64,000 bases of DNA, from assembly GCF_963576615.1 (NCBI RefSeq), contig NC_088708.1, positions 7,440,001 to 7,504,000 of the forward strand, read 5' to 3'. A program made the position numbers and the translations under genes. How positions within the stretch are numbered: position 1 is the stretch's first letter; the number at the start of each line of letters is the position of its first letter. The notes under the pieces are model-generated. The model saw only the letters and a list, made by a program, of their open reading frames with translations. It had not been told where the DNA came from and did not search any database. Source of the stretch: Watersipora subatra (Eukaryota > Bryozoa > Gymnolaemata > Cheilostomatida > Watersiporidae). Below, one piece after another: positions 6,722-51,700 of this stretch.

Positions 6722-6849
6722 ATATATATATATATATACCCCAGAATAAAGTGACCCCAGAATAAAACATCAATCTGGAATAAAGATAAGTAAAATTAAC
6801 CTATTCCACACTCTAGTTATATATATATATATATATATCAAATATAATC

Positions 6850-7570
6850 ATATATAAAATCTATCGCACTAGAGACGATCCTAGATGCAAACTGTGCAAA
6901 GATGCACCTGAGACCATCCAACACATCATCAGTGGATGCAAGCAGCTAGCAGGAAATGCATACACTGAGCGGCATAATCATGTCCCAGGTGTTGTGTATC
7001 GAAGTCTATGTGATGAGTATGGCCTTAATAAACCACAACACTGGTGGGAAGCTCCTGGTAAGGTCAATGAAAATGACCGCGCTAAGATCCTCTGGGACTT
7101 CTATATCCGAACTGACAAGCATGTCTTAGCAAACCAACCAGATATAGTGGTGGTAGACAAGGAGAACAAGAGGGCTTCTATCATAGATATAGCAGTACCC
7201 AATGACTACAATATAGCCAGCAAAGAAAATGAAAATGTAGAGAAATATATCCCTCTTGGAGAAGAGATGAAAAATGCTGGAATGTAAGAACAACTGTAAT
7301 CATTGGGACACTGGGTTATTGGGACATTGGGATGCAGGTGTTATTGCGCCCAGTAGTCATTGGGACACTGGGCGCAATAACACCGGCGCATAAAATGTGG
7401 CTTGCCCAAATACCAACAGCAATCAACTCAGGTGAGTTGCAGAAAAGTGCGCTATTGGGAACAGCTAAGATCTTGAGGCGAGTGCTCAAACTCTCAGGTC
7501 TCTGGTCTGGTAGAAGACCCGAGTTAGAGCAGAAATTACCACCCATACGGGGTATCCGGGGTGAGGAAAC
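6850..7570 (+). mobile_element. Decayed 3' fragment of a LINE with restriction-like endonuclease
   Basis: The frame from about 6865 to 7287 encodes a zinc-knuckle-like motif, CX2CX7HX4C (CKLCKD...HIISGC), followed by a PD-(D/E)XK-like segment (PDIVVVDKE with IDIAVP). This arrangement is typical of the C-terminal endonuclease of R2-type non-LTR retrotransposons. After a stop at 7287 the similarity continues in another frame (about 7300-7590) with the familiar tail that includes LGAITP, KSALLGTAKILRR and LKLSGLW. The reverse transcriptase is absent, so the copy is 5'-truncated and frameshifted. A TA microsatellite flanks its left edge. Family recognition is from memory of similar LINE tails; the exact clade is not assigned. 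Confidence 0.8.
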
Positions 7571-18226: not shown

Positions 18227-20300
18227 ATCAAGTCTTTAGTTGTTATATATGTCAGTACAGTAGAGCATGGTTATATCAAGTCTTTAGTTGTTATATATGT
18301 CAGTACAATAAAGCATGGTTATATCAAGTCTTTAGTTGTTACATATGTCGGTACAGTAAAGCATGGTTATATCAAGTCTTTAGTTGTTATATATGTCAGT
18401 ACAGTAACGCATGGTTATATCAACTCTTTAGTTGTTATATATGTCGGTAGAGTAAAGCATGGTTATATCAAGTCTTTAGTTGTTATATATGTCAGTACAG
18501 TAAAGCATGGCTATATCAAGTATTTAGTTGTTATATATGTCAGTACAGTAAAGCATGGTTATATCAAGTCTTTAGTTGTTATATATGTCAGTACAGTAGA
18601 GCATGGTTATATCAACTCTTTAGTTGTTATATATGTCAGTACGGTAGAGCATGGTTATATCAACTCTTTAGTTGTTATATATGTCAGTACAGTGGAGCAT
18701 GGTTATATCAAGTATTTAGTTGTTTTATATGTCAGTACAGTAGAGCATGGTTATATCAACTCTTTAGTTGTTATATATGTCGGTACAGTAGAGCATGGTT
18801 ATATCAAGTATTTAGTTGTTACATATGTCAGTACAGTAGAGCATGGTTATATCAAGTCTTTAGTTGTTATATATGTCAGTACAGTAGAGCATGGTTATAT
18901 CAACTCTTTAGTTGTTATATATGTCAGTACAGTGGAGCATGGTTATATCAAGTATTTAGTTGTTTTATATGTCAGTACAGTAGAGCATGGTTATATCAAC
19001 TCTTTAGTTGTTATATATGTCAGTACAGTAAAGCATGGTTATATCAAGTATTTAGTTGTTATATATGTCAGTACAGTAGAGCATGGTTATATCAACTCTT
19101 TAGTTGTTATATATGTCGGTACAGTAGAGCATGGTTATATCAAGTATTTAGTTGTTATATATGTCAGTACGGTAGAGCATGGTTATATCAACTCTTTAGT
19201 TGTTATATATGTCGGTACAGTAGAGCATGGTTATATCAAGTATTTAGTTGTTATATATGTCAGTAGAGTAGAGCATGGTTATATCAACTCTTTAGTTGTT
19301 ATATATGTCGGTACAGTAGAGCATGGTTATATCAAGTATTTAGTTGTTATATATGTCAGTACGGTAGAGCATGGTTATATCAACTCTTTAGTTGTTATAT
19401 ATGTCGGTACAGTAGAGCATGGTTATATCAAGTATTTAGTTGTTATATATGTCGGTAGAGTAAAGCATGGTTATATCAAGTCTTTAGTTGTTATATATGT
19501 CAGTACAGTAAAGCATGATTATATCAAGTATTTAGTTGTTATATATGTCAGTACGGTAGAGCATGGTTATATCAACTCTTTAGTTGTTATATATGTCGGT
19601 ACAGTAGAGCATGGTTATATCAAGTATTTAGTTGTTATATATGTCAGTACGGTAGAGCATGGTTATATCAAGTATTTAGTTGTTATATATGTCAGTACAG
19701 TAGAGCATGGTTATATCAACTCTTTAGTTGTTATATATGTCGGTAGAGTAAAGCATGGTTATATCAAGTATTTAGTTGTTATATATGTCAGTACAGTAAA
19801 GCATGATTATATCAAGTATTTAGTTGTTATATATGTCAGTACGGTAGAGCATGGTTATATCAACTCTTTAGTTGTTATATATGTCGGTACAGTAGAGCAT
19901 GGTTATATCAAGTATTTAGTTGTTATATATGTCAGTACGGTAGAGCATGGTTATATCAAGTATTTAGTTGTTATATATGTCAGTACAGTAGAGCATGGTT
20001 ATATCAACTCTTTAGTTGTTATATATGTCGGTAGAGTAAAGCATGGTTATATCAAGTCTTTAGTTGTTATATATGTCAGTACAGTAAAGCATGATTATAT
20101 CAAGTCTTTAGTTGTTATATATGTCAGTACAGTAAAGCATGATTATATCAAGTCTTTAGTTGTTATATATGTCAGTACGGTAGAGCATGGTTATATCAAG
20201 TCTTTAGTTGTTATATATGTCAGTACAGTAAAGCATGGTTATATCAAGTCTTTAGTTGTTATATATGTCAGTACAGTAGAGCATGGTTATATCAAGCTTT
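18227..20300. repeat. 48-bp minisatellite, about 43 copies
   Basis: The unit begins ATCAAGTCTTTAGTTGTTAT and ends AGCATGGTTAT. Variants with AACTCTTTAG and AAGTATTTAG alternate through much of the array, giving a higher-order unit of about 96 bp. Since 48 is divisible by three, a 692-residue open frame of 16-residue repeats runs through on the + strand. I treat this as a repeat and not as a gene, because the repeats are nearly identical at the DNA level and no signal or known family is evident. Confidence 0.93.
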
Positions 20301-23300
20301 AGCAGAATGCTCTAAATGTTTGTTTTAGTCATCATTAACTCTAGCAAAACTTACTTAGTACACGCTTGCATAATCTTCCATAAGTAATAAATATCTTGTT
20401 GTCATTGTGTGTGTATGTCCGTTAGTCTTAAATGTTAACCTTAAATGTTTTAGGATTTTATGGCCTATGTTACTCAATATTCACATTCATATGCTCGGTG
20501 CTTTCCATCAGTTTGCCAAAAGTATTTGGGTTCAAGACTCCACCTGCTGCCTGAGAAGCAGCCTCTTAAACAATCTCCTGTGGGCTGATTGCAAATAAAA
20601 GAAATCTCTGGGATTGTCGGTTCAATGCTAGTATAATGGATCCTTTGATTCGATATAAGATATAATAGAGCATTTGTAAATATACAAATAAATACATAAA
20701 TACATTTGCTACAGGAACATCCCCTATAGTTATGGTGTATCACGCGGCTGGTTGACTATAAGTCTTCGCACAGCTAAGGTAGCTAACGTTCTGTTGGCAA
20801 CCGGTACGCATTTTGTTGGCAGATTTATAAAATTTCTCCGTGGGAGTCAATAATAGAGTGAAGGTGAAGCATATATCTACCCGGCCCCAAATATGGGGTA
20901 CATCTTAGTTGTCCTGGCATCAGTTGGTGTTGGCCACTCTCATGAATAAACAAGCCATATTGATTCATATCTCTGGCTGCATGCAGTTAGTCATGCTTGC
21001 CTAGCCCAACTCTCATGAACAAACATTTTCATGGCTTGATGTGAACATTCCTTATGTCTTGCATAAAAACAAAGCCAAACAACTGGGGTAGTCCAACTTA
21101 TAAGGTGAAATTTGTGGTTTTCTCAATTTTGCTATTGCACTTTTTATTACAAACAGTCACATTTGTAATAATAAAAAAGTTTTTTCAGATGTTATCTTTA
21201 ACTGTCAACAGAATGAGAAGCACTTGAATGAATATATAAATATCTATTTTTATTGCTGAAGAAAATAGTAATAATCAAAGCATTTATAGTTATTCCCTCT
21301 CTTACTCTCTAATTTGTAACATGAATTACGGAACAAATAAGTTGTTTCTAGTAAAAATAAAACATTGTCAATAAAATTGTGCGACTGCCTTCCATAAATT
21401 TAAAAAATCTTTTCATACTCAAACATCAAGACGACACCTATCAGCGGGTACCATTTCATCAGCGTCCTTTCCTTCACTGTTCTTATCTCCAGTCTTTTCC
21501 CTATGCAATGAGCAACATGTTTATCAGGCATCCTATCTATTACAGAGTGCAGATTTCTATAATTATTTCAATAGCCTATTCATGTCTTTCATTGTTATGG
21601 TAGTGAAGGATGCTCTGCTCCATGACATAAGACCTACCAGCATTTCCACTCATCTCACACATTTAATGTAGTTGCATGGCTTATATTAAAGCCCTTGTTA
21701 TGAATTCTAAAAGTAATCAGACAATATTTTGTGTCCAGTACTGTCAATAAGGCAATGTAGCTGTACCCTAGCTGGGTGATCTGTTGTAGCCTCTGCTCTC
21801 AGTGTCATTTCCTTTTATTTCATCAAAACTAAATAGAAACTTTTTTACCATTAGTTGCTTAAGCTACACACTTGTACTATTTCAGGCCACTCTTTTCATA
21901 ACCTGCTGGCACGTGTCAACAAGTACTGCTACATCTGCTGTCAAACGTATATTTATCAAAAACAAAAGCATTTCAAATGTTGAGTCACTTACTGTACAAG
22001 GCAGCAATACTCAGGGTATGTTGGCTACAGTGGTCAGAATACATTCACCTCATGAGCAAGGGAGAGATGAGATACTACCAGCATCCTGCTAGCACCGCAG
22101 CCAGATAGCATTATTAAATAGCAATTTTAAAGACTCAGACGTAGAAGGGGGTAAATGAAAAGATAATCCGCAGGCTGGCATATCCTAGTTGAAAGAAATA
22201 GACATACCGATTGCTGGCTAACGCAAAAATCTGCGCAAGGTCGTTCGCTTGTATAACATGCGAGTCTGTTTGTCCAACCACCTGCGTTGAGTTGTCAGCA
22301 AGAACTTCATGGAACTTAGTAAATGGTAAATACTTGGTCCTATTATCTCCAACCATGAGTTTAATGTTGGATCCAAAAATTACCTGACAAGGAAACTGTA
22401 CAGTGGATGGTGAGAAGTGAAAGAGCAGTAATATTGTATCTTTTAGACTGAACCAACATGGTTCAACACAGCACTTTTGTCTGCTGCAAAGGGGCATCAT
22501 CTCTACTGTCTCATCGTTCTTTATCTATACTAATTTATTCAAAAATGTCATTTCTAACATTTTAAATATCATTTTCAGTACTGTATTTGTAGCCATAACT
22601 TGTGCTGAAAAGCTCACTATTAATGAGCGGCGACAATGTTTGCTTGGCCATCCCTACAGTATCTGAAAGCCTTCCAAAAGAAACAACCACCTCACAGGGG
22701 CTGCTTCTTACAAACAAGCACTCTACCTCGCTATAGTGATCACATAGGAGTGAGAAAGACCTGTCAACAGATATGAGGTTATATAATAGTTACATAATCA
22801 TGTAACTGGAATTATGTAAGAGCATAAGGAAACATTACGCCTGTACTGTGAAAACTTGCGAAGAGCCTGGAAAAGGCTGGTTGTCATCGCTACTCGCGAT
22901 GTATTTTATTTTCTAAATGGTTATAACCATAGTTATAACCACGGTTATAGCCATGCTAAAGTGTTAGCTTGAGACAAAAAAGGGTGAAAACTTTTATTAA
23001 AGGGTTTTAGCAAAGGTTTTCAACCTTTTTTCATTGGCCAAAACCTTTTTCAGTGAATGATTAACTTTTGAACCCATACTTGAGGGCTCAATGAAGAATA
23101 CTCGTCGCAATTAAGAAAATTTCTTCAAGTAATTCTTTAGCACCCAAATCAAAATTCTGAGATATAAATCAGTTAAAAAACTTTTTTGCCATTTTCACAA
23201 TAAAACATTTTTCAAACATTTTGTTATTAGATTGCGCATGACCGTAAATATTTCACTAGGAAGATGCCATTGTACAATTTTATATCCTTAAAGGGGGCTA

Positions 23301-23939: not shown

Positions 23940-24206
23940 ATGCTGAAGGCTGAACACAACACCAGCATGCAGGCCTGTTCTGACACCGCGAGGAGAGAGG
24001 ACAGCTCTGCAAACTTCAGCCAGCAAATGCTGCCTGAACGAACATTCGACTCCAACATGGTGGGTCATGCTACTGAGGTCAGCCGTGCTGTCGAGACTGG
24101 GCCGCAGGAACTAAAGAGTAGTGACTATCCCTGGGGAGGGGTCGACGCTTCGAGTTATCAAGAATGGCTCAGTTCTTTGCAGCAGCAGTACCAGGCACTT
24201 GGAAAG
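23940..24206 (+). CDS. Hox3-position gene, coding exon 1
   Basis: Encodes residues 1-89, ending QQYQALGK before donor GTATGTGATG at 24207, phase 0. It contains the YPW motif and a Gln/Ser-rich end. Its GC content is visibly higher than that of the flanking DNA, which supports coding status. Confidence 0.72.
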
Positions 24207-27200
24207 GTATGTGATGATTGGCAGCGGCGCAAGAGCAGCAGCCAAAATACACATGACAGCGGATAACTATTTCTTATCATCTGATAACATCTGTTCTTCG
24301 CTCAACCAGCAAATTAACATGCTAGAGTTGGCCCTCTTTTTTGTTAAGCATTTTGTGTGCTTCTGTAGGATCTGTGGTCTTTAAGCTATGTTACTGCCTC
24401 CCATTATATTTAAATAACTCTCTTCCTATAATGCTGTAATGACTCACGCTCTGGCCTGTGATTGACCTTCAGTAGTTGCTCTACCCAGGAACAGGCTAGA
24501 ATTTTCTACGATTCATAACTTGAATGCTCTGTTCTTAAAAAACCTTGTTCCGCTTCAACACTTCAGCTTTTTCATTTCTCACTTGTTCTTCAACATCAAT
24601 ATTAGCATCATCAGCTGATCATTGATGTCTCTGCAGAGAAATTGATGTCTCTGCAGAGAAATTGATGTCTCTGCAGAGAAATTGATGTCGAAATGATGAA
24701 CTAGCTGCAGAGAATGTTTTTAAATCTAACGTAGGCTTTTATGGTCTGATCGTAAATTTGAACTTGTGGGCATATTAATGCAACAGCCAATGTGCACGAA
24801 CTAAGCAAACTTGTGGGTGTATTAATGCAACAGCCAATGTGTACGAACTAAGCAAACTTGTGGGCGTATTAATGCAACAGCCAATGTGTACGAACTAAGC
24901 AAACTTGTAGGTGTATTAATGCAACAGCCAATGTGCACGAACTAAGCAAACTTGTGGGCGTATTAATGTAACAGCCAATGTGTACGAACTAAGCAAACTT
25001 GTGGGTGTATTAATGCAACAGCCAATGTGTACGAACTAAGCAAACTTGTAGGTGTATTAATGCAACAGCCAATGTGCACGAACTAAGCAAACTTGTGGGC
25101 GTATTAATGCAACAGCCAATGTGTACGAACTAAGCAAACTTGTGGGCGTATTAATGTAACAGCCAATGTGTACGAACTAAGCAAACTTGTGGGCGTATTA
25201 ATGTAACAGCCAATGTGTACGAACTAAGCAAACTTGTGGGCGTATTAATGTAACAGCCAATGTGTACGAACTAAGCAAACTTGTGGGCGTATTAATGCAA
25301 CAGCCAATGTGTACGAACTAAGCAAACTTGTGGGCGTATTAATGTAACAGCCAATGTGCACGAACTAAGCAAACTTGTGGGCGTATTAATGCAACAGCCA
25401 ATGTGTACGAACTAAGCAAACTTGTGGGCGTATTAATGTAACAGCCAATGTGTACGAACTAAGCAAACTTGTGGGCGTATTAATGCAACAGCCAATGTGT
25501 ACGAACTAAGCAAACTTGTGGGCGTATTAATGTAACAGCCAATGTGCACGAACTAAGCAAACTTGTGGGCGTATTAATGCAACAGCCAATGTGTACGAAC
25601 TAAGCAAACTTGTGGGCGTATTAATGTAACAGCCAATGTGTACGAACTAAGCAAACTTGTGGGCGTATTAATGCAACAGCCAATGTGTACGAACTAAGCA
25701 AACTTGTGGGCGTATTAATGTAACAGCCAATGTGCACGAACTAAGCAAACTTGTGGGCGTATTAATGTAACAGCCAATGTGTATGAACTAAGCGACAGCT
25801 AAGGTTTTGTTTATTTATAGTAACACCGTTTTGTAAGTAGACTGAAGGTTACAAGCATCATAATACTCTCTATGGTTCGAGTAGTTCATTGCACGGTAAC
25901 ACAACTCCATATTGCATTTTACTCTCGCAGTTGGTTTGCCACTGCAGAGCAAATGTGCAATGGTTCAAAGTTTGTTTTTCCTACTCTCTTAAAACAGGAT
26001 GTTGACCTTCCAGTTTGCATTCTCATTCAAGTAAATCAGTTTCAATCCTGATACCAACTGAGTAGCAACATGATACAGCTTGGGCAAAATGGCTGACACT
26101 GTTTCTACAAAAACTGTATATTATGAATGATCACGGCAGCCATGCCTAAAGAGCATATACCAGAATAAGAAACATTTCTCGTGAGAATAAATAGATTTAA
26201 ATTTGTCCAAAAATTCCATGATGCACTCTTTTGCTTATCTACTCTTTCCTCTCTACATATGGGTAGCATATGGTCTAACTTGTTACCATTAATATATTCA
26301 GAACCCATGGCTTTGCGAGTAAACATATATTCAACTACTCGACCTTGTGTAACTAAGGTGCAATTGGTTAGAGGTCAGGGTGGTTAAGGCAATCAATTTA
26401 GAAAAATGATTTATGGCTGTTAGATTTGGAACCAAAGTAAGTGAAGGGTAAACTGGGTGTGTTCTGCAACAAGAATTAACACTGAGTCCAGACAGATAAT
26501 TTTTGTCTCACAACACACCCAGCTGAGCAGTAGAGGCGCAGTAATTTATAGATAACCAACAGTTTTACAATGATTAATGATTAGGGTTATTGTTATATCT
26601 TAAATGGGGGGGGTCATGACATCTCCTACGTGTAATTTATTGCCATTCAGATCTGCTCGCCTCTGCTTTAGATTGCAATTTTTGTTTATTGCATCTGGTG
26701 GGGCTTGAGAGGCTTGTTCTGTTTGGAGAACAGGAATGGTTAGTATGTAGTGCGACAGCAGAGGGTTTTTCTGTGACAGCGGAAGGTGTGAGATTTCTGC
26801 GTGTGATTGTCATGGCTGACTGCCCATGAGGCAGCAGTTGGGGCGGAATTGCTAGCAAAGTTACCTGTGGTTAGGAATGCAGAGCTATCACTGGATGGTG
26901 TAGAGGCAATAATTCTTGCATATTTAAACAGCAAACTTCTCTAGATTGACAGCTTCGCATTTTTATAAAAGATTCAGGAGTGACACCTTCATAGCTTTCC
27001 GCTATTGTTTTTTGACAGGCTTTGTTGCTTCGCTCTTTAACCATGCCTCAGTCTGACATCGGATATAATTAACCAGGTTGTGTCATATACTACCTTACTA
27101 AAGACTGAACTAGGTAGATAGTTGTATATAGATAGTGTACCATTTGTTGTGATTAGGGAATTATATTTTAAACGTGGAAGGAATTGTGTATTACATTTTA

Positions 27201-30200
27201 TATCTAGAATGGATGAGAGACGCTAACCACTTTAAATAACTGCTAGGTAGGTCTGCGGATGAATTCGATATGAAGTTATGGTAGGTCTGCGTATGAATTC
27301 GATATGAAGTTATGGTTGTGTACTATTCAGTATCTAACAGCATTGTCTGATGAACAAGTGAAAGCTTAAACTCACCAGAGTTGTCTTTTACGTTAAAAAT
27401 GAGAGTAATCTTTTTAAACCTTAGACTTATCAGTGACCTCTCGTGATTGACCTCTCGTGATTGACCTCTCGCGATTGACCTCTCGCGATTGACCTCTCGC
27501 GATTTACCTCTCGTGATTGACCTCTCGTGATTGACCTCTCGTGATTGACTTCTCGTGATTGACCTCTCATGATTGACCTCTCGTGATTGACCTCTCGTGA
27601 TTGAGCTAGTGAGCAAATGAGAGCTGCCATTTCGTTGACAAAATTAACACAATCGTTTCAGAAAGCTATCAACTCTTAGTTATAATATCTGATAAAGAAA
27701 ATACCATACTTCAGGACGTGTCATGTGGTAATCATTTCAAAAACAAGAAAATGTGAAAAGCTTATAAAATATTTGTATTAAAATAGCCAAGAAAACAAAT
27801 AATTTATATAAAGAGAATACAATACGAAAAGCAGAGAGGCATCCATATTAGTCAATTAAAAATTTTAGCATCATAAAGCTGTGAAATAATAAGAATATCA
27901 GATACTTGCAAACTTGATAAATAATTTCGTAGCTCTTACTGCTGTTTTCTGAAACCGCTCGATGGTGTAACATGCCATGCTATAAAGAAATCTTTCTGGA
28001 ATCCTTTTAACTCGTGTCAGAGCAGACAATCCGCAAGTGGCTTGCCTCATGTGATAAAGAAAAGAGAAATTTAGGAGTTGCCCAAACAATGTTCTGCTAG
28101 CTGGAGCATCGGGATTGGTATTTACATCTGTACTTACGTAGGCGTAAAAGATTAGTATTTACGTCTGTATTTACATTAGTGTAAAGGCTGACTACGCACC
28201 GACAAAATACGTTGTCGACACGTAGTGTAGATACCTGCTGTGGCTACACACTGGCACTACTAAACGACGCTTGCGTTATCAGCTAGATCGACCAATGGGA
28301 ATTGGCCTAAGTCGTGTGAAGGCTATGTCGAAAATATATCTTTGTTGGATATTTTCGATTGTTTGTTGGATCGTCACCGTACAAAATATCTGCTATTGCC
28401 CAGCTATATTTAGGGCTAGGAGAAAACCAATATGCATTAACAATGAAATTCAGCAAAGTAAAAAAATAATTTGCGTCCATAAAATTTATTTGAAAAATTT
28501 TGAAGTTTTTATAAACAGTTCTAATATCACCGATATCCTTCCCACATATTTTGTAAATAAGAATATCTTTGACCACATATAACTAGTTGTTCTTGAATAA
28601 CCTTGTCATTATTTGAAAATACTTGTGCCGGAAATAAATAAAATTAAGTCTACATTATATCTGTTAGAAATAGCTCGTACAGCTAATCACAGATACACCA
28701 ATTTTTGGTGTATCTGTGATTAGATTCTTCAGATTATTTCAGTTTACTAGTTTATCACTAGTAAACATAAGAAGTTGAAAACATATACCAGCAAACATTT
28801 ACTATAAGTTACTGACTGATATGTACACTCTGGTACATGCCAGGATGGTATGTACACTCTGGTACATGCCAGGATGGTATGTACACTCTGGTACATGCTA
28901 TGATGGTATGTACGCTCTGGTACATGCCAGGATGGTATGTATACTTCAGTAAATGACAGAATGGTATGTACAATCTGGTACATGCCATGATGGTATGTAT
29001 ACTTGAGTACATGCCATGATGGTATGTACACTCTGGTACATGCCAGGATGGTATGTATACTCTAGTACATGCCAGGATGGTATGTACATTTCAGTACATA
29101 CCAGGATCGTATGTACATTTCAGTACATGGCAGGATTTTGTGTAGACTCTGATTCTTGCTAGGATGGTGCGTACACTTCGATACATGCCAGAAATTTACA
29201 TACATTTTAGTATACGCTAGAATCATACATACACTCTGGTACATGCCTAGATTGTACATACATTCTGGTGCATGCCAGGATGGTATGTACACTGTAGTAT
29301 ATGCCAGGATGGTGCGTACACTCTGGTGCATGCCAGGAGGGTACCCACACTCCGCTACATGCCAGGAATGTATGTACACTTTACTATATGCCAGGAATGT
29401 ACATACACTTTACTATATGCCAGCAAAGTACGTACACTTAACTATATGCCAGAATCATTTGTACACTGTAGTACATGCCAGGATGGTACATACACTCTGG
29501 TGCATGCCAGAAGGGTACATACACTCCGCTACATGCCAGGAATGTACTACACTCTACTATATGCCAGAATCATTTGTACACTCTGGTAGATGTCAGGATT
29601 GTACATGCCTCTGAATATACTGTAGAAGAAGAAAAACATGTCTGATTTTCATTCGTCAGCTGACTATCTGGCTGATGTTTGAATGAAAGCAGTATACATG
29701 TATGTAAGGAAAAACAAGTTGTCATGTCAATATTCCATATAACCACATGTAGCAAAAGTTAAAAAGTAGGATGTATTATATTTTTGGCACAGTTCCAAAT
29801 GAGGGATTCTGCTTACGTTGTTTTCTTACGATTTAAACATGCTTAAAGAAATCTATGTAAGAGTAAACTTCGCCAACATTTAAATCACAGCTACAGTCAT
29901 TAAACCATAACTGTCACGTACAACTTTTATCGCATTTTCTAGGTAAATCACACACGCTGATTCCGATTTTGTACTCAAAATAAAGATTGGTCCACTAACT
30001 ATCTGTGTCATGAAGGCTTTTTTTAAAGCGTTTCAATATCCGTCTTGAAAACAACACAATCTGTATAACAAGCTTCGCCCAGAAATATGTGACATAACCT
30101 AGCTTTTTAGGAATGGAAGTTAGGGATGTTTAGTCCGATTTAGAATGATAGAGATGGGTGTCTTAAAACCCATTATTATCTAAATTCAGCCTTCAAAATA

Positions 30201-33200
30201 ATCTCAGTCTTTTCTGAAAGGTAGATAAGCTATCTAACATTGCATATTCAAAAATGAGCTCAAAAAAGCGTGATAACAACACTAGTTTGTGATAAAATCG
30301 CGCTTTTTGAGCTTATTTTTCTCGGCGTTCAGCCTATTAAGCATCTTGTAACAAGCTACGAGCAATTTTAAATAGTTTTTCTATCTTTCATAAAAGACTG
30401 AGAAGATTTTGCAGGCTGAATTTAGATAATGGGTTTTAAGACACCCATCTCTATCTTTCTAAATCAGACTAAACATGCCTAAATTCCATTCCTAAAAAGC
30501 TAGGGGGCGTCAAATATTTACGGACGAAGCTTGTTGGGCCGATTGTGTTGTTTTTGAGACCGATATTAAAACGCTGTAAAAAGCCTTCATTACTTTGAAA
30601 GATAGTGAATCAATCTTTATTTTGAGTACAAAACCGGAATCAGTGTGTCTGATTTACCTGGAAAATACGATAAAAGTTGTGCGTGGAAGTTATGGTTTAA
30701 GCTATTGCTTGCATTATTATTATTGCGCATAATCAAGCACTGGACTCTACTGCACACCTGATAATTACTTTTTAAGTAGATTTTGTCAGTTTTTTAGATA
30801 GTCTAATATGTAACAGTAACGACAGTAACTTGTTTTTATTATCGATCTGTCTTATCGCATGCGGAGCTATTGTGACTAGTTCCAGTAGGAAATTACATGC
30901 TATTAGAACTAAGCTGTCCAGTTTAATAATCTTTACAAAATGTCAAGACTTTGGTGATGCAGCACCTTCGTTAGAACTAGTTAGGGTTATTAGCTAGCTT
31001 TATTTGGCTGCATTAAAGCTACTTCTACACAAAGTTTTGTACGTTCCACATAAAAAGTTTAAACCCTATCATGTTAACAGAGCTCGGACATTTCTTTAGG
31101 TATCGCCTACTTCTAGCCTCAACTTTATGTATGCCCACATCTACCACATCCTGGTTTCATTCATTGGAACGTAAAAACTCCAAGAAACATGACTAAATGT
31201 AGTTTGTATTGTTTTTGTAACTGCGTCATAGGAACATCCGTTTGGCTAGCTTCATGAAACTTGTAACCGTAAGCATCTATAATTCCAACAACATATCACG
31301 TGCTAAGTGAGCTGGTTAACAGATTCTACTTATAATATTGTCACCATATTTCCAGTCTCAGCCCCCAGGAGGGGAAGCATTTTGAACATTGTTCATCAAG
31401 TAGCATGGTGATGTACATGTATATAAATCACTCCCCTTCTAAGCAACACCTACACTTCAATTGTTGAAAGGAAGCTCATCTATTTTTTTCATTAAATATG
31501 TTCAATGAATCCACCGCTATTCCTTCCTAGCTATTCCTTCCTAGTTTTACCCAAGTAATCATGAATAAGTAATTATTACTAACGCTAACTGACAAAATAA
31601 ATTTCAAAGAATGAGTTCATTAGTTCATCCTCATCCTCTTTACCACAAGGATGAGATTTAATTGTCGGAATTGTCAGAGCTGTGCATGCACATCGCGACA
31701 CGAAACGCTTTTAATTGGCTAAACAAATTATTAGCGAGCAGGATTTTAGCAGCTTTGGCAATTGGTAGCCTATAGTCCAAGACACGAATTACGACACACA
31801 ATAAATGTGCCAGTGGAATTCAACATAGTAGATGCGATGCAACTGCTTAGATTACGTTATTGTTAGTTTTTATCGTTTGAACACTATGGCTACGAATCTT
31901 TTTTTTAATAATAACAACTTTTATTTAACAGTAAAAGTTCCGTTGTGGAAAGAGTTGACATCTTTAGTGTAAGCAAGTCAATTGTATCGTCTTTAATATG
32001 GTGAATTGCGTTAGTCTTTGTCTTGCGTGTCGCATTATGCGCCTCAGACTATATAAATTGCGAAAGCTGCTAGAATCGTGCTCATTAATAATTTGTTTAG
32101 CCAATTAAAAGCATTTCGTCAACGATTTCGGTGTGCATGCACAGCTCTGAAAATTCTGTGAATTTTGGCCAAAGAATTTTGTGTTTTTCGTTCATTTCGT
32201 GATTTCGGTCAGAACCAACGAAAAAAATCGGCATGTGTGGCCGTACCTTTAGACCTATAAAATCTATTGATTTAATAAATTATCTACTAAAATCCACTAA
32301 TATTTAGTAGCTGCACCCTGCTGGCCAATCATGAATACATATTACTATTGTTACAGATCACACCCGGGTCAAGGCAATAATTACAAAAATCTTACAAAAC
32401 AAGTCAATAATCAAATATTACACTAGCTGTATGAACAAGTATATCCGACCATAGACGTTAGGTATTGTGTGTAGATATACCTTAACCAGCTCACTATCAT
32501 AATAAAGTAGTACTTCAGCTTTGACTATTTTTTGTTCATAAAAAATGGAATGCGGCCACCAGCATTACTGCCTAATAAGCTAAACTGAAAAATAATCCAA
32601 TCTTGGTGCTCAGGGTCAAATCTCAAGAGTACTCCAGAAAGATTTTCTCACATGGCACACTCAGTGATTTGTACACATCTTGCTGAAAATGCGTAACAAC
32701 AGTAAATAGCTAGTCGCTAGCGACCCTGCAGATATATGCTATTTAAACCAGCAGTCCTTGTCAAGTCAGTTTTGTAAAGAATTGACCGCAAACTCCATCA
32801 TATTTCACTACAAAACTTTTGTGTTGCATTTATTTGTCATGCAGATCTTTTAGATGTTAACTCTAGAAGTGCCCGACCAAAGGACTCTGTAGTGACACAA
32901 ACATGTGGCGACGTTTAAATTTTCCGTGTACTTATTCTTTCGTGTCAGTTATTGACAAGAGAGAGACAAAAATTCTGACATCCTTCAGCAAGTGGTTAGA
33001 TATTCTAAAGCTGATTAATGGGTTTTTAATAGATATCATTTCAGAGCTTGCATGCCATTGTTGTAACCGGCAATGTCCCAGTAGAGGTCTGTTCTATTAT
33101 AAGTGTAATTGTGTCAAAAGCTCTAAGACAAATATACATGCTTTGAAGTTGAGAAACTGTTATCCGATTTGAGCTTATAAATCGTGGTTTGTAAGGAAAC

Positions 33201-36200
33201 AAAAATTTTTATTTTCCTTAATGTTAACGTTTAGGGTTCCTTGCTCTTCGCAAGAGAACAACTCAAACAACCCAGAAAGCTGAATATTTGCAGGTATTCG
33301 TCGATTATGGTAACATTGCGTAAAAATACTCAAAGAGGTTTCTATCAAATTTGTGCTGATGTTTGGACAGAAATAGGAAAGCTTTCCTGCATTCTAACTT
33401 TCTCTCCAAATAATAAAACTGGCCATTTCAGCTTATACTTAGGCTATCAATATAGATTAGCTTTTTTCAGTGAGGTATGATCCAGATATTTCGCGGTTAA
33501 CAATCAAAATGTGGCATATCTATTGCTACAAGATCAGGCTGTGACACCTGCATCACGCAGACCTCTTTACATTGGTCTGAGAGCCTGTCACTCTATGTCA
33601 TGATTGCCTGTCACCCAGCAGTGCCTGTCAGGTGTGTGATGTCCAGCGAAATAATATTATCGATTATATGCCAACCACAATCTTTCACTTCCAGTTAAAA
33701 TTACTAGCATGTATAATTGTATTTGTGACAGAGTACTCCTAACTGGGCTAGGCAGAAGGACGTGTGCTCAGTTAGCTCAAAACACAGCCTCAAATCAACT
33801 ATCTTCCGCAAGCAGAACTCCAGATCAGAGGGCATGAGGGACGTAAAGCAAGGTCTCCAAACGATTATCAATAAATATGCCAAAAAGGCTCAAGAAACTG
33901 AGGCCGTCTTGTTAAGGGACATCATTGGTAAGTCAGCTCTTTGGTCTTTGAGGTAGGATTGTGGTTCTAGTTTTTGTCAGATGCATTGCTATAGTTAGCT
34001 AGAAAGTTTACTATACTAGAACTTCTAAGTATTTAGTTTGTAAAATTATAAAATAATTAATTACCCGCCTAAACAGTTTGAAGTTAGGGCGATAAAAAAG
34101 AAACACTGGCTATTTTTAAAGTTACGCTAGCAATCATCTAAATCATGGCAGACTGAATTCTAAACTACTGCTTATATGTACGTCTATACAAATGTAGCAC
34201 TGCTTGTGGCAAGTGAGAGGGTGGGACAATTCTCAAACAGTTTGGCAGCTTATAGATGCAATAGCTATTTGTGCGCATTTTTTTATAGAGAATACTTTGC
34301 ATAGTAACTTCTTTTGTTGTCAAGGGTTCATTATTATGTATTTCATAAAAAATGGTGCATGAGGTAATATTGGGATCAATATATATTAATACTACTATAT
34401 TATATTACTATATTAAATATAGTAACATTAATATAGTAATATTAATATTCAAACTCATTTCTTTCCTGTACACATGTTCAAGCTGACTGCCATATTACAT
34501 GTAGCTTCAACTTGAGCAAAAAACGACTGTTTGTATATTGGCAGTGGCAGCAGTTTTACACGGCTTTTGTTTTTCTTGCTAATTTACCTTTAGATAAGAA
34601 CAATAACCTCAGCGTTATTCATGTGTTTTTAGTAAACATTCAAAGCGTTGAGTACTATTCACTAACTAAACTCTGGCTGGCAGCATTTGTGTACTTTTAC
34701 CCTTCCAGCAATAGCTTGTGGCTAAAGGCTGATTCGCACTATATCGCTGTATGACGGTATTTTTCTTTCAGAGTTCATCATCGATTATGTGAACCGTAAA
34801 TCGATGGCATAGACGGAGCAACGCGGATACGTCCGGAAGGTTTGCAGCTGTCAAACTTTCCCGGTATTTTGCTGAGCATCGAGGACTACCTTTTTAATGT
34901 GAACCATTTCGGCGATGGTAATTCGCGGTTGCGAATAGAGGGATCTATTTATTTCGGTTTATGATAGTTGCTGCGAGACTAGTATTTGATTCAATGCGCG
35001 AAAACAAAGAGGTTTCTTTGCGAAAATTTAAAAAGAAAAATGATAACACTATGTCACGGAGTATTTGCTGATGCAAACGTGGATGGGTTCACACGAGTTC
35101 TAAAATATGACCAGATCCTTAGTGCGAATCTTTGTTATGAAACTTTGTTTGGGACAAAACAATGGATCTGCTAAGGTTTTATGGCTATAAAGCAATGTTA
35201 GTAAATATAAAATACTTCGGGAAAAGCATCGGTATGATTGGATAGTTATATTGGTAGTCCTTACTTGACGGCCATCTCGCCTAACAACAACTTGGAGTTA
35301 TGACAGCTTGTTAAAAATTAAGAAAATTATCAAAAATATGTTTAACAAAGCTAATTATAAATGAAAAAATAATATATTTTTTAAAACTGTTGAAGCAACC
35401 AAGAAGCATAGATATTAAATACGCGCACTAGCCATGACATTGTTTTCATGCGCATACGGTATTGGGTGCTAGGCTAATATTTGCCATTTGGGCATATATG
35501 GTAGCGGGTATTTGGTTAATATCTGAAACACAATGAAAAATCCTATGGTACGTGCAAATGCTAGATGAAAAGGTAAATTCAAGGAATTAACATGAAGAAT
35601 AGGTAAAAATACATAAAATCTACTGGAATGTACCCTACGGTCTCTGCGGTAGCCTAACATTTATTTACAGGCTTGGGCACGCAAAAGCTAAACGAAACAA
35701 ACTGTTTAAATTTCATGTATTTGGTAAAAGTTTACACATATTATTAAAAGAGCCAATAGAAAGTAGAGAATTAAAATAGCCTATATCTATGCGACGGAAT
35801 TTATTAGCAATGAGGTCTTCAGAACGTAACCTAGGACAAGGATAACTTGTACATTTTGTTCACCTCCCATTAGATAATGCTGGATTCATGCTTGTAGTGA
35901 ATTTTTTGCGAAAATTGCAAAAATTCACTACAAGCATAGAGTAGTGCAATTTTTGCACTAGTGAAAAATTGCACTACTCTAATGCAATTTTTGCATTAGT
36001 AGTACACACTACTACTACTAGTGCAAAATTGCAATTTTTGCAATTTGAGTCTAATTTTTTGCAAAAAATTTGGCTCACGCAGGTTTGAGCAGTTATAAGA
36101 AGTAATAATAAATTTATATTGAAATAAAAAATATTTCTGTTAAAAATTAATGGAAATACTGAATGATAATATCTGCATGATCTTACGAGGAAATAGTGTT

Positions 36201-38321
36201 TAGGCTCAAGCAGAGTATAGCTTGCGTTCTTACCGGCAAAAATGGTGAGTCGAACAAAATGGCCACAGAACTTTGAGTAAGGTGTGGCCACCCAGATGAA
36301 GCTGTTTTGTTTCACTTTTGCATAAACTAGGCTTGAAGTTGGAAATGAGCTGGAGGTCAAATAACAAATAAAAGTCATTGTAAACCCCTAGCATCAGCGG
36401 CAGCCTTGCAATAAGCTCTTTGTTAAACACTCTCAAGTCGTCAGATGTGAGCAAAACTTTTTGTTTTCTCGTCATTTGTAGCAATGCATGTAATATCGCT
36501 ACTACTGGTAGATATACTACTACTAGTGCTAGTAGTGTTATCGCTACTACTGGTAGATATACTACTACTAGTGCTAGTAGTGTTATCGCTACTACTGGTA
36601 GATATACTACTACTGGTGCTAGTAGTGTTATCGCTACTACTGGTAGATATACTACTACTAGTGCTAGTAGTGTTATCGCTACTACTGGTAGATATACTAC
36701 TACTGGTGCTAGTAGTGTTATCGCTACTACTGGTAGATATACTACTACTAGTGCTAGTAGTGTTATCGCTACTACTGGTAGATATACTACTACTGGTGCT
36801 AGTAGTGTTATCGCTACTACTGGTAGATATACTACTACTAATGCTAGTAGTGTTATCGCTACTACTGGTAGATATACTACTACTGGTGCTAGTAGTGTTA
36901 TCGCTACTACTGGTAGATATACTACTACTAGTGCTAGTAGTTTTATCGCTACTACTGGTAGATATACTACTACTGGTGCTAGTAGTGTTATCGCTACTAC
37001 TGGTAGATATACTACTACTAGTGCTAGTAGTGTTATCGCTACTACTGGTAGATATACTACTACTGGTGCTAGTAGTGTTATCGCTACTACTGGTAGATAT
37101 ACTACTACTAGTGCTAGTAGTGTTATCGCTACTACTGGTAGATATACTACTACTACTGCTAGTAGTGTTATCGCTACTACTGGTAGATATACTACTACTA
37201 GTGCTAGTAGTGTTATCGCTACTACTGGTAGATATACTACTACTAGTGCTAGTAGTGTTATCGCTACTACTAGTAGATATACTACTACTAGTGCTAGTAG
37301 TGTTATCGCTACTACTGGTAGATATACTACTACTAGTGCTAGTAGTGTTATCGCTATTACTGGTAGATATACTAGTGCTAGTAGTGTTATCGCTACTACT
37401 GGTATATATAATACTACTAGTGCTAGTAGTGTTACCGCTACCACTGATAGATATACTACTACTAGTGCTAGTAGTGTTATCGCTACTACTGGTAGATATA
37501 CTGTATATATTAACTTTATTTACATCGATCAATGCTGTTTAGAGCAAATTAGACAATGAGACAAAAAACAAAAACGAAAAATAGTCGAGTAAAATAAATT
37601 GCGTGTTGAGAAAATTAGCCAGGTGTTGTTGTCTGGTATAAAGTCTAGTGGTTTTTTGGAAAAGTAGGAATGTAATGGTGGTCAGGCAGATTGGAGCTAC
37701 GTTTTGAGTATTTTAAACAGCAAATATCTAGAAATGCAGTCAACTCCTTAGTATTAAGTACGAGTGTGACAAGTTTTACTTATACTATTACTGCTGGTGC
37801 TAGTACTAATTGTATAACTAGTAATACTGATATTGGTACTACTATCATTTCCATTTCATTGTGTTTTAATAGAAAATAATAGAAACAGACGGCCCTACTA
37901 TTCAGCATCGCAGATCCGAAAGCTGGAGAGCATGTTCAGGGTCAATCGCTATCCAAGTGTCAATGACAAACTTCATCTCGCGGAAGCTCTTAACATTTCT
38001 GTCAAACAAGTATCCGTCTGGTTTCAAAATCGGCGCTGCAAAGAGAAGAGGAAAGTCGCTGATGAGTTAACGCATAGGCCTATCACATCTCAGCGAAGCC
38101 ACTTTGTCAATATTCTCCCCAGTCAAACTGCCCCTGCGCAGGGAGATTGGAGCGTGTGGGACAACAATCCTAATTTGGGTGTAGAGTCTGCCCCAGGGCT
38201 AGCTCTTCCGGTCTCTCTCCAGTCAACTGAAATAAACACAGCATCAGTGCAGGCAGGTGCTCCAGAGGCGACTGTACAGATACAGCAGACAGTTGGTATG
38301 ATGGAGCGAATGGAGTTGTGA
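23940..38321 (+). CDS. Divergent homeodomain gene in the Hox3 position (3 coding exons)
   Basis: Predicted nuclear DNA-binding protein of about 295 residues. Exons 23940-24206, 33756-33927 and 37873-38321 join in phases 0 and 1 with GT/AG ends. The ATG at 23940 is the first after an in-frame TGA at 23910. The homeodomain (about residues 149-208) keeps L16, F20, W48, F49, Q50, N51 and R53 but is otherwise far from any Hox class: P6, V42, K31, S46, V47 and C54 replace typical Hox residues, and only about a third of positions match a Hox3 consensus recalled from memory. A degenerate hexapeptide, DYPWGG, sits near residues 62-67. The C-terminal tail is Gln/Ala/Pro-rich. Lying between Hox4 and Hox2 on the same strand, it is best read as a fast-evolving Hox3 orthologue, in the way insect zen and bicoid are; an inserted non-Hox homeobox gene remains possible. 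Intron 1 is 9.5 kb and intron 2 is 3.9 kb, both repeat-rich. Confidence 0.78.
24621..24690. repeat. 20-bp tandem repeat, 3.5 copies
   Basis: Unit ATTGATGTCTCTGCAGAGAA. Each unit contains the palindrome TCTCTGCAGAGA. It lies in intron 1 of the Hox3-position gene. Confidence 0.93.
24761..25793. repeat. 47-bp minisatellite, about 22 copies
   Basis: The unit starts AACTTGTGGGCGTATTAATG and ends ACGAACTAAGCA, with variable positions (C or T after TAATG; TGCACG or TGTACG). It lies in intron 1 of the Hox3-position gene. The period is not divisible by three and the frame does not stay open. Confidence 0.95.
27246..27314. repeat. 34-bp tandem duplication
   Basis: Two copies of a unit starting TAGGTCTGC and containing GAATTCGATATGAAGTTATG, differing by one base. 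Confidence 0.88.
27435..27602. repeat. 14-bp tandem repeat, 12 copies
   Basis: Unit GACCTCTCGTGATT with C/T variation at the CG step, in intron 1 of the Hox3-position gene. Repetitive Arg/Glu/Ser frames on the - strand are artefacts. Confidence 0.95.
28683..28723. repeat. Hairpin with 19-bp perfect arms
   Basis: Arms CTAATCACAGATACACCAA and its exact complement surround the loop TTT. It lies in intron 1 of the Hox3-position gene, about 100 bp upstream of the 29-bp array. Confidence 0.92.
28822..29605. repeat. 29-bp degenerate minisatellite, about 27 copies
   Basis: The unit begins TGTACACTCTGGTACATGCC and ends AGGATGGTA. Copies diverge towards the right. The TGTACA and GGTACATGCC cores make the array rich in short palindromes. 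Several open frames cross it on both strands and are not genes. Confidence 0.9.
29900..30700. mobile_element. Foldback element with arms of about 370 bp
   Basis: The left arm starts TTAAACCATAACT at 29900 and the right arm ends with its complement at 30700. The two arms can be followed by eye almost to the centre, where GAGCTCAAAAAAGCG faces CGCTTTTTGAGC. Shared blocks include AAAATAAAGATTG, CCTAGCTTTTTAGGAATGGA and GAGATGGGTGTCTTAAAACC. Differences are mostly single bases and small indels. No transposase is encoded. It lies in intron 1 of the Hox3-position gene, so the primary transcript could form a long hairpin. Confidence 0.88.
31667..32159. mobile_element. Inverted-repeat element of about 490 bp (MITE-like)
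   Basis: The left end GGAATTGTCAGAGCTGTGCA and the right end TGCACAGCTCTGAAAATTC are imperfect complements. Internal blocks such as CTTTTAATTGGCTAAACAAA match on both sides. Arms extend roughly 130 bases. The subterminal GTGCATGCAC is itself palindromic. It lies in intron 1 of the Hox3-position gene. Confidence 0.8.
33756..33927 (+). CDS. Hox3-position gene, coding exon 2
   Basis: Acceptor GGGCTAGGCAG ends at 33755, and the exon opens in phase 0, matching exon 1. It encodes 57 residues rich in Lys, Arg and Ser, ending LLRDII plus one base before donor GTAAGTCAGC at 33928. There is no known domain. The phase match at both ends and the strong donor are the main support. Confidence 0.62.
35888..36070. 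repeat. Compound palindrome block
   Basis: Several hairpins lie back to back: 35888-35937 (arms starting ATGCTTGTAGTGAATT, one indel), 35938-35980 (exact 17-bp arms AGAGTAGTGCAATTTTT around a 9-base loop), 35981-35997 (AATGCAATTTTTGCATT), then AGTAGT/ACTACT and GCAATTTTTGC motifs to about 36070. It lies in intron 2 of the Hox3-position gene. Confidence 0.88.
36495..37502. repeat. 45-bp minisatellite, about 22 copies
   Basis: The unit starts ATCGCTACTACTGGTAGATA and ends GCTAGTAGTGTT, with regular A/G alternation (ACTAGTGC or ACTGGTGC) in part of the array. Because 45 is divisible by three and the unit lacks stops in several frames, open frames of 352-404 residues run through on both strands. 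None is credible as a gene. It ends about 370 bp before the homeobox exon of the Hox3-position gene. Confidence 0.95.
37873..38321 (+). CDS. Hox3-position gene, coding exon 3 (homeobox exon)
   Basis: Acceptor TTGTGTTTTAATAG ends at 37872, and AA completes a split Glu codon two residues before the homeodomain. The homeobox is uninterrupted and contains VSVWFQNRRCKEKRK. The tail of about 87 residues ends at TGA, 38319-38321. It has no intron at the 46/47 position common in PRD-class genes. Confidence 0.9.
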
Positions 38322-41141: not shown

Positions 41142-41549
41142 GAAAATCATCATCATTTCGTCATTGGTTTTGAGTCAGCAGCCAAATCTGTACATGACAT
41201 TGCTCAATATCTTTTCAGCAACTACCCTTACATCAACTACTTCCTAACCTTTAAGATCAACCAGGATCACATTGAGATTCTGTTTTCCACAATACGATCT
41301 AAGGGTGGCTATAACAATAACCCAGATGTGCAGTGCTTTAGATCTGCACTTCGAGCACTGTTCATAAAAGCAGATATTACACCAAGTCCCAATGTTAACT
41401 GTATTGATCTGGATGTGAGCAGGGCTGGAAAAACTGGCCAACTCCTGCTACATTCTCTGGCTAGAAAGAAAAAGAAAGAAGAGACAAAAGCTGAGGAAGG
41501 TGAAGATGAGGAGTTCGGTGATGAGGATTTTTTTCTAACTCAAATGTGA
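41142..41549 (+). pseudogene. P-element/THAP9-like transposase, C-terminal fragment
   Basis: A 135-residue open frame with no start of its own, bounded by TAG at 41139 and ending at TGA in 41547-41549. It carries YFLTFKINQDHIEILFSTIR followed by SKGGYNNNPDVQCFR, matching the conserved C-terminal block of P-element and THAP9 transposases (N/S-QD-LE-FFS-IR-GG-NNNPT-QFR). A Lys/Glu-rich acidic tail follows. It lies inside a pair of terminal inverted repeats, so it is a broken transposon gene. Confidence 0.82.
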
Positions 41550-45643: not shown

Positions 45644-45770
45644 ATGATGGCGGGGATGCAACATCAGCAGACTTACGACAGCATGGTATCTGCGTCAGCA
45701 CCTGTAGAGTCAGTGGAATTTAATTGGATAAAAGACCCAAAGATTCATAAGCAATCTAGTCAAACTTCAG
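45644..45770 (+). CDS. Hox2: Hox2 coding exon 1 (hexapeptide exon)
   Basis: Encodes 42 residues plus one base, from MMAGMQHQQ to the hexapeptide region. Donor GTACATATGC begins at 45771, phase 1. The spliced codon G|AG gives Glu. Confidence 0.82.
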
Positions 45771-48700: not shown

Positions 48701-51700
48701 CCCATTGAGCAAGCAAAGCCAAACAACTTGGCAAGCTTACCAGGTTCAATGAAAATAAGGATGCCTTCAGCTGTTCAAGTGGCTTTTGCTGAGATTCCCT
48801 AAATGGCTGTATTTGCGCACCATTTATTTCAACAGTAAATGCCTCATTAAACTAAAAAATTGAAATAGTAAGGATACGAGTGAATTATACTGAAGACATA
48901 TATATGTTTGACCAACAACAAAACAAGAAGGTTAACAGTGACATGCTACTGACTGATCATCCGTCTCTAGTAAAAATTCAAACAGTACCATTGTTTCTGA
49001 CAGCTTGTCATTTTTAAATCAATTGTTCTGTTTTCAAGGCGAATATTTTGTATCTAATACAGGAGCGATACGTATGACATCTCATGATGGTGTCTCCTGA
49101 GAGTGCAAACTGCCAAAAAAGACTATATAGCATGTATTTAAATTTAAGAGGCTGCTAGAATAAGACAGCCATCTTAATTATTGGTTTTTTGAGAAAAGAT
49201 ATATCATGGTATTTTTATTACTTTTATTTACTTGTTTTTTTCATGCAATAAAAAACTAGTATTTTTCCACGTCATGAGCTAGCTTATTTATAGAACTAAC
49301 TTATATTCCACCTCGCAAACAAAAATTACTCATCTGTGTAAAAAGAATAACTAAAGGACTAATCTCACAAATAATATTAATAATAATATTAATAATAGTA
49401 ATTTGGATTGTGACTATGATATGTTATATACACAGTTAAAGGAAATTAGATTCATTAACACAGGCTGGTTGAATAACAAACTGGAGATTGAATCTATCTA
49501 TCCGTGCAAAATTGTTCAAATAACACAAAAAGTATCAGGTGTGCTGCAACCACCTTTTTCCCATATATCAATATATACCATATATCTACTTAACGAGTAG
49601 GCTGCCTGACAAATGCCAGCAAACTAAGCATTTTTCTCTGGTTAATGAACTTTCAAATCATTTATTAATTTATAATACTGCATATGCGTAAAATGTATAG
49701 TTTACAAGCCAGCAACCGAATAATGGCTTGCAAACCAAAACATGTCCAAACATGTGTTTGTGCCTTAAGTGATTGAATGACCCTTGCAGTTGTAACAAGG
49801 TTGTCATGTATGGAGTTAGAAGGGCAAATTTTAGCTCAAAGATTCAACGAAGCTTGAGACTACCCTGTACTAACCTGAAACTTTTCAATGACGAGCTATT
49901 TAATTATACCTTGCTCTAATGATCTGTCAGTGTAGAGATCACTTATGTTGTTTTACGTAAACCTCAAAAAGAATATATGCCAGACACAGTATATGCTTTA
50001 TCGCAAGAATGTCAATGATTGGCTGTAAAAATCTCAGAAGATTTTAAGATCTACAATGAGTCAAACTGAAAACTTTCCATTTGTCAATGTTGCCATAAAC
50101 TATGTATTTTTTCACAAAGCATCAATTTTCACTCAAACTGGCTCACAGTTTAGATTGAAACATAGTAAAAATTGCATAGGAATTATGTAAAAATTTTAAT
50201 GGTGCCTCAAAATCTGGTTAAGAAATCAGAAGAAAATAATGCTACAAAGTTTCAAAATGAAATCTTAAAATTATGTTTGAAGCCCTGCAAGAAAAATTAA
50301 AAACCTCCATAAATTAATGAAGTACCGCCATTTGGTTTCTCTATATTGTGTACTCTGATATCTGGCTTTGGAGGCCAAGATATGTAGTATAAGGTGATGT
50401 TCTCTTTGTCTACAGCCTTTGAAAGAAATCATTAAAAATACATAACTTTTTAGATACCATTTTGTGATTTTTAATTCAGTCAGATGGATAGAAGAAAAGC
50501 TTGGCAAGTTCTCTAGTAAAATAGTATCTTTATAAGAGCATGTCCGCCGTGGCAGTAGTAATAACTAACAGTACCGGCCATACGTATGTGTGTTACATCT
50601 ATTGCTGACAGTACCAGCCATATGTATGCGTGTTACATCTATTACTGACAGTACCAGCCATATGTATGCGTGTTACATCTATTGCTGACAGTACCAGCCA
50701 TATGTATGCGTGTTACATCTATTGCTGACAATACCAGCCGTATGTATGCGTGTTACATCTATTACTGGCAGTACCAGCCATACGTATGTGTGTTACATCT
50801 ATTGCTGACAGTACCAGCCATATGTATGCGTGTTACATTTATTGCTGACAGTTATATCTACTTGAAGGTTTGCTTTCATCTAACAATTGTAGCTCTTCCT
50901 CTTGGAATCTTAACATGCGGGTGCACAAAAATTAGGATATGTTTGATTTACAGAAAATTATTTTTAATTTTTTTTCTCAGGTGCTCATCGTTCTTTGACT
51001 TGCCAAAAGGGGGTGCTGAATGCAGGAAACTTTCTTTGAGTCTTTGTACAATTAATTAATACTACTCAATAATACTGCTCTGTTGGTTAGAGGGAGCAAG
51101 TGGGAACACAACTGATTTGAAGCTGCCTAAAAGACAGCGAACGGCTTTCACCAACACACAACTTCTTGAGCTCGAGAAGGAATTCCACTATAACAAGTAT
51201 CTATGCCGATCTCGAAGAATAGAGATAGCAAAGGCACTGAGTCTTACAGAGCGTCAGGTAATCAGTCACTACGCTATTAGTAAATGCCAATTAGGCCTGT
51301 TCCACCGGGTGCATTTTTGAACTGCTAAGAATCTCGAGTATGTCACAGAAATTCAGGTTGCTGCGCGCTGGTGTGTCGTATGCTCGTGTGTCGTATGGTC
51401 AAGTGCATAGATGTGAGACATGTGATATGACTGGGTGATGAAAGTGATACGCCACACTACCATCAGTTGGAAGGCGATGAAGAAGGACAAATTTATTCAT
51501 TAATTATTAGGATAACTAATCTCTAAATCTGATAATATCATTGGAAGTGTGACGCTGGCAGTGAACCATCCCTGTCTATGGATACGCTGATTCACTCAGA
51601 GTTACTTGTAGCACATTCTGGACGGAACAGAAATCAAGGGACACAAAGTGGTTCCGTTATTCGAACTTCGAGTAAAATATGTGTCACAGTTTTGAGGTAT

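Follow-up and report, generated by a model that had tools for sequence, protein, structure and literature searches.

A divergent, intact homeobox gene in the Hox3 slot of the bryozoan Watersipora subatra, most likely a cryptic Hox3

Has Hox3 been lost from bryozoans, or is it still in its place in a form that is hard to recognize? The question is raised by a stretch of 64,000 nucleotides of the Watersipora subatra genome (assembly GCF_963576615.1, contig NC_088708.1, positions 7,440,001 to 7,504,000 of the forward strand), referred to here as the window. It carries a homeobox gene, given the working name X, in the Hox3 slot. Saadi et al. 2023 describe pb, Dfda, Lox5 and Post2 of cheilostome bryozoans in one genomic region and Dfdb in another (PMC10675955). 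The same account looked for Hox3 in four bryozoan genomes and 35 transcriptomes without success and concluded that the gene is missing; an older Hox3 of Bugula turrita it put down to contamination or misidentification (PMC10675955).

X is read here as the bryozoan Hox3 in its ancestral place, with a homeodomain that has diverged in the manner of zen yet remains intact; the probability of this reading is put at roughly 0.6. A cryptic Hox3 is the most likely identity because of the slot, the orientation, an upstream exon with a YPW motif, the lowest tree cost among the four Hox groups tested, and searches that turned up no further Hox3. Two steps of this reading are inferred: the descent of X from Hox3, as opposed to a duplicated or immigrant gene, and the membership of the YPW exon in X. 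The parts of the predicted gene, in window positions, are as follows.

23940 to 24206, + strand: exon 1 of X, 89 codons from the first ATG of the open reading frame (ORF), with the donor AAG/GTATGT in phase 0.
24126 to 24134, + strand: YPW core of a hexapeptide-like motif, SSDYPWGG, in exon 1; the M of YPWM is missing.
33816 to 33927, + strand: candidate middle exon of 112 nucleotides, leading from phase 0 to phase 1, one of seven candidates.
37873 to 38321, + strand: homeobox exon, open up to its TGA (38319-38321); the acceptor at 37872 needs phase 1.
37878 to 38057, + strand: homeodomain, positions 1-60, with no intron inside.

The homeodomain is complete. The sequence-only reading of this DNA had announced a highly divergent homeobox gene in the Hox3 slot, and this holds: the domain matches the Pfam Homeodomain profile with an E value of 4e-19 (68.6 bits; 69.9 bits in the whole-genome Pfam homeobox scan), with Dfd on one side, pb on the other, and all on one strand. 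When parts of X were compared with Pfam, homeodomain-type families alone rose above the cut-off. The significant profile match, the three-helix fold and the residues W48, F49, N51 and R53 place X in the homeodomain superfamily. AlphaFold2, run without an alignment on the product of the homeobox exon, predicts the three helices with block means of 90-95 in predicted local distance difference test score (pLDDT) across residues 11-60. The overall mean pLDDT is 66.5, with low values in the preceding arm and the following tail.

A decaying, functionless relic of Hox3 might be suspected from the very long branch of X in the tree described below. Neutral decay was simulated in 2000 runs, using substitutions only, starting from a Hox3 homeodomain and ending at the identity level of X. 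X scores 73.7 bits against the profile, compared with a maximum of 36.2 among the simulated decays, so that 0/2000 reach it. A stop-free homeodomain is left in 80/2000, and none of the 2000 runs retains L16, F20, W48, F49, Q50, N51 and R53 together. Since no simulated decay comes near its score, X, if derived from Hox3, has been selected as a homeodomain for most of its divergence. A relic is also opposed by a homeobox exon that holds neither stop nor frameshift, and by the confident predicted fold; we consider it highly improbable.

The position of X is that of Hox3. Three homeobox genes lie in the window, all on the + strand, in the order Hox4/Dfda, X, Hox2/pb. When four Hox homeodomains and X itself were used as tblastn queries against the window, three loci were returned at an E value of 0.01 or better: Dfda (11127), X (37881) and pb (51129 and 54369). 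Neither this search nor the genome-wide Pfam scan found a second homeobox beside X between Dfda and pb, or a fourth anywhere in the window. On the contig of the window (C1), the cluster reads Post2 (7370854), Lox5 (7410649), Dfda (7451127), X (7477881) and pb (7491129). Here as throughout, gene labels were assigned by comparison with reference homeodomains.

The whole assembly (one genome; 783.7 Mb in 239 contigs) was also searched, such genome searches scoring the best candidates only. The Pfam scan gives 68 homeobox matches, of which 61 were inspected in 60 loci and three belong to the window; the remaining four, the weakest, were left uninspected. At an E value of up to 0.001, a Hox3 homeodomain query returns 24 matches, with Dfda, Dfdb, Lox5 and pb at the top. 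The sequence-only reading had set a conserved Hox3 elsewhere in the genome as the test against itself; none is present among these 24 matches, which do not include the four uninspected homeoboxes. Hox1, Antp, Lox4, Gsx and Xlox were not recognized among the 64 of 68 homeobox matches inspected, and Cdx, on C8, is the only ParaHox gene recognized. The genome is thus poor in Hox and ParaHox genes, in line with the bryozoan reports. In the published account, Cdx is the sole ParaHox gene of cheilostomes, Dfd is duplicated and Post1 is missing (PMC10675955). Complement and linkage in the bryozoans described there match those of this genome, in which the Hox3 slot holds a homeobox. A tunicate origin, which the Hox4 residues and the Hox2-3-4 linkage could suggest, is contradicted by Lox5 (with KLTGP), Post2, Dfdb and the recognition of no ParaHox gene but Cdx.

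That survey relied on BLASTP and Exonerate, taking known proteins of the Hox and ParaHox sets as queries (PMC10675955). A homeodomain at 35% identity could escape such a survey; that X itself did so is what we infer. A literature search covering titles and the beginnings of abstracts, with few subscription papers, returned no homeobox in the Hox3 slot of bryozoans. The parts consulted of an account of novel lophotrochozoan homeobox genes (PMC5322547) and of the 956 Mb Flustra genome (PMC13326412) mention no gene like X, and the latter cites the reported Hox losses.

Exon 1 is supported as a putative coding exon. Its donor scores 9.5 bits, within the top 0.4% of GT sites in the window. Its synonymous codon use is higher than that of 151/151 control ORFs of the window, and 4/151 exceed the C-terminus of X; the measure is a weak one, in that the X homeodomain and the first exons of Dfda and pb do not stand out. 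A genome search with exon 1 finds itself as the sole match at an E value of 1 or better. The motif [YF]PW occurs five times in the 127,996 six-frame residues of the window, the Dfda hexapeptide among them, so that 0.0034 occurrences are expected by chance in the 89 residues of exon 1. A YPW-bearing exon upstream of the homeodomain is a feature of Hox-type genes. The start of X, MLKA, resembles what we take to be the Hox3 start, MQKA; this likeness is post hoc and was not used.

The ends of the predicted gene model would be 23940 and 38321. A model of two exons fails if the strong splice sites are used: the exon 1 donor is in phase 0 and the homeobox acceptor in phase 1, the latter being the phase also found before the homeodomains of Dfda and pb. 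An alternative phase-1 GT, at 24211, scores a weak 1.4 bits. The model therefore calls for a middle exon. Seven candidates pass a moderate splice-score filter, two of them inside a tandem repeat. In the X intron, four candidates reach a summed splice score of at least 14.5, some excess over the seven control segments (8.9-13.6 kb), which hold no more than one each. None of the seven candidates for the middle exon is proven.

Against a Hox3 identity stand the residues and affinities of the homeodomain, its place in the free tree and one point of the gene model. The residues named beforehand were all read as stated (K31, V42, S46, V47 and C54, together with W48, Q50, N51 and R53; F49 is also present). 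The Hox3-type residues M54, K46, I47 and the R31/E42 pair have thus been lost, and X is not filed as a member of Hox3 because these defining residues were tested for and are absent. The overlap of about 21 of 60 positions with Hox3 that had been claimed corresponds to 21/60 identities with HOXA3, fewer than in zen (41/60) or bicoid (26/60). In its own genome, X ranks just 15th of the 24 matches to the Hox3 query, at 38% identity. Among 72 homeodomains ranked by BLOSUM score to X, HESX1 comes first and HOXA3 22nd (tied with places 19-21); identities are most numerous with HOXC11 (27). Judged by sequence, X favors no homeodomain class, and homeodomain similarity alone does not point to Hox3. The phases of exon 1 and the homeobox exon differ, and their membership in one transcript is unproven. 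In the free tree, X branches by itself at the base of the ANTP class, apart from Hox3.

The tree comprised 82 rows, and eight constrained placements of X were compared (Hox1 and other central groups were not tried). The end branch of X measures 4.31, as against 0 to 0.49 for the other Hox genes of the genome; as these are far less changed, the fast evolution is particular to X. Placing X with Hox3 costs 3.2 log-likelihood units (p value of the approximately unbiased test, p-AU, 0.376), compared with 8.1 for Hox2 (p-AU 0.322), 8.6 for Dfd (0.247) and 8.6 for posterior Hox genes (0.304). Hox3 is therefore the cheapest of the four Hox groups tested. Outside these groups, the cost is 5.0 units with nine classical PRD rows (p-AU 0.213), 9.7 with LIM and 10.2 with BARHL2. 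HESX1 as the sole sister of X costs 1.5 units, less than Hox3, and this too belongs among the opposing points. Strong tree support for a non-Hox class, the second result by which the sequence-only reading had agreed to stand or fall, was not obtained; a Hox placement was not resolved either, with 0/8 placements rejected (p-AU 0.21-0.45). X is an orphan long branch, and the tree decides the Hox3 question in neither direction.

The low cost of HESX1 and of the classical PRD set would suit an unrelated homeobox gene, of PRD, NK or another class, that was inserted in the Hox3 slot. The best 60 of 148 PDB matches to X point the same way, being spread over PRD, NK, Bar, Gbx and posterior Hox proteins (DUX4, engrailed, HESX1, BARHL2, NKX2-1, GBX1 and HOXB13 are mixed among them). 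Against an inserted gene stands the YPW-bearing exon upstream. The undivided homeodomain also speaks against it: X lacks the PRD-class intron near position 46/47, whereas at PRD-type loci of this genome the homeodomain match ends at position 46 in 8/10 and 2-4 residues later in 2/10. L011, a locus that groups with DUX4 in the tree, is likewise undivided; because of this, and because some ANTP and LIM loci also end at 46, the undivided homeodomain is a soft mark, though one that leans toward Hox3. A search with the homeobox exon found no close paralogue of X in the assembly, the next four matches being NK2-, unassigned, Dfd- and Gbx-type homeodomains at 38-41% identity. With about 60 non-cluster homeoboxes in 784 Mb, the odds of one falling in this 34 kb gap in this orientation are near 0.1%. 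Insertion is quite unlikely on these grounds.

Another possible origin is a posterior Hox gene, either Post1 or one like Hox11-13, that has shifted forward within the cluster. It is suggested by the BLOSUM ranking, in which eight of eight HOX11-13 rows fall within the top 14 of 72. The HOX11/12 rows share 25-27 of 60 residues with X, above HOXA3 and so a further point against Hox3, and the HOX13 rows share 20-21. E56/K57 and the stretch PYY-S-QIR-LE of X recall HOX11/13, the posterior clade is not rejected, and Post1 is the gene reported missing in the published account (PMC10675955). The constrained tree nevertheless costs 8.6 units, and Post2 of the same genome shares 22/60 with X, the same number as Dfda. 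We know of no YPW hexapeptide in HOX11-13, which also counts against this origin. Such a transfer is very unlikely.

Hox3 could also have been truly lost, with X arising later as a tandem copy of Dfda or pb that then diverged, a history comparable to that of the Shx genes of moths but with a different parent. Such a copy would inherit the slot, the orientation and the YPW exon. Duplication of Dfd is on record in bryozoans (PMC10675955), and clades of X with Dfd or pb are not rejected. X is, however, no more similar to Dfda (22/60) or pb (20/60) than to other classes, and holding it together with them costs 8.1-8.6 units, as opposed to 3.2 with Hox3. A BLAST comparison of exon 1 and the C-terminus of X with the first exons and C-termini of Dfda and pb finds no similarity (best E 4.9). 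A duplicate calls for two events, one loss and one gain, where divergence by itself would be enough, and this origin is judged unlikely.

The neighboring genes and repeat arrays of the window are the following.

9610 to 9883, + strand: Hox4/Dfda exon with YPWMKKLH, donor phase 1; its start codon is not settled.
11101 to 11387, + strand: Hox4/Dfda homeobox exon, at 86.6 bits the top homeodomain match in the genome scan.
18227 to 20302: tandem-repeat array, unit of 48 bases, between Dfda and X.
24761 to 25793: tandem-repeat array, unit of 47 bases, within the X intron.
28820 to 29603: tandem-repeat array, unit of 29 bases, within the X intron.
36494 to 37502: tandem-repeat array, unit of 45 bases, within the X intron.
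45644 to 45770, + strand: Hox2/pb exon 1, with FNWIKDPK, donor phase 1.
51091 to 51257, + strand: Hox2/pb exon 2, homeodomain positions 1-44.
54369 to 54872, + strand: Hox2/pb exon 3, homeodomain position 45 to the stop codon.

The Dfda homeodomain is identical to fly Dfd at 56/60 positions. In pb, which has a degenerate hexapeptide (FNWIKDPK), positions 44 and 45 of the homeodomain are separated by an intron; pb of cheilostomes is described with two introns (PMC10675955). Directly 3' of pb lies a seipin gene on the - strand (55660-60777), seen as Pfam PF06775 in three ORFs at 107, 36.6 and 24.2 bits, the last just below the cut-off of 25. A DNA transposon remnant with a TNP-like RNase H C-terminal domain is found between X and pb (41142-41549). 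Two further matches in the window are one to DDE_1 at 63078-63317 and a weak one, below the cut-off, to a reverse-transcriptase zinc finger at 6817-7284. The arrays with 48- and 45-base units are open in several frames and are not to be taken for genes. Rfam, at its gathering thresholds, and a transfer RNA scan gave no matches in the window, hence no microRNA landmark.

Outside the window, the homeodomain of Lox5 is followed by KLTGP, which we take to be the Lox5 signature. A second Dfd/Hox4-type homeobox lies on the - strand at C4:9624661-9624831 (L001) and fits the published bryozoan Dfdb; downstream of the homeobox it reads KGRLPEIK, as against KGRIPEVK in Dfda.

With the spiralian and vertebrate Hox3 genes (Hox3/PG3), X shares the position between Hox2 and Hox4, the orientation, the undivided homeodomain and a hexapeptide-like motif in an upstream exon, which in X is YPW without the M and is joined to the homeobox by a predicted linkage. 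It differs in its homeodomain: a spiralian Hox3 has 56/60 identities with HOXA3, whereas X has 21/60. The escape of Hox3 from axial patterning, as in zen, bicoid and Shx, is a textbook story of insects. The parallel with zen and bicoid that the sequence-only reading had drawn is a reasonable analogy. Like X, insect zen, bicoid and lepidopteran Shx lie next to pb and evolve much faster than their neighbors, and they derive from Hox3 (PMC4207634). They belong to another phylum, whereas X is spiralian, would be an independent case and has no close paralogue.

In the explanation favored here, the homeodomain of a Hox3 gene would have changed so much that it is overlooked when genomes are searched for ordinary Hox similarity. 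Homeodomain residues 5, 46, 47, 50, 51, 53 and 54 take part in DNA contact. With R5, Q50, N51 and R53 kept, X may be a putative transcription factor that reads TAAT-type sites, with its DNA contacts probably altered at 46, 47 and 54. Its interaction with PBX-type partners may be weakened, as the sequence has YPW without M. X may then have moved from an ordinary axial Hox role into a lineage-specific one, as insect zen did; this change of role, drawn by analogy, is the least certain step of the explanation and is somewhat less likely than not. Taken as a whole, it is possible, at just short of an even chance, that Hox3 was never lost in bryozoans, having been kept in its slot while it became a fast-evolving, zen-like transcription factor, as an independent spiralian case.

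If this is true, the published phylum-wide loss of Hox3 would be a failure of detection. With a colonial spiralian as a second and independent case, one could ask whether a tendency to be released is intrinsic to Hox3. In every bryozoan genome, the stretch from Dfda to pb is a definite place to look.

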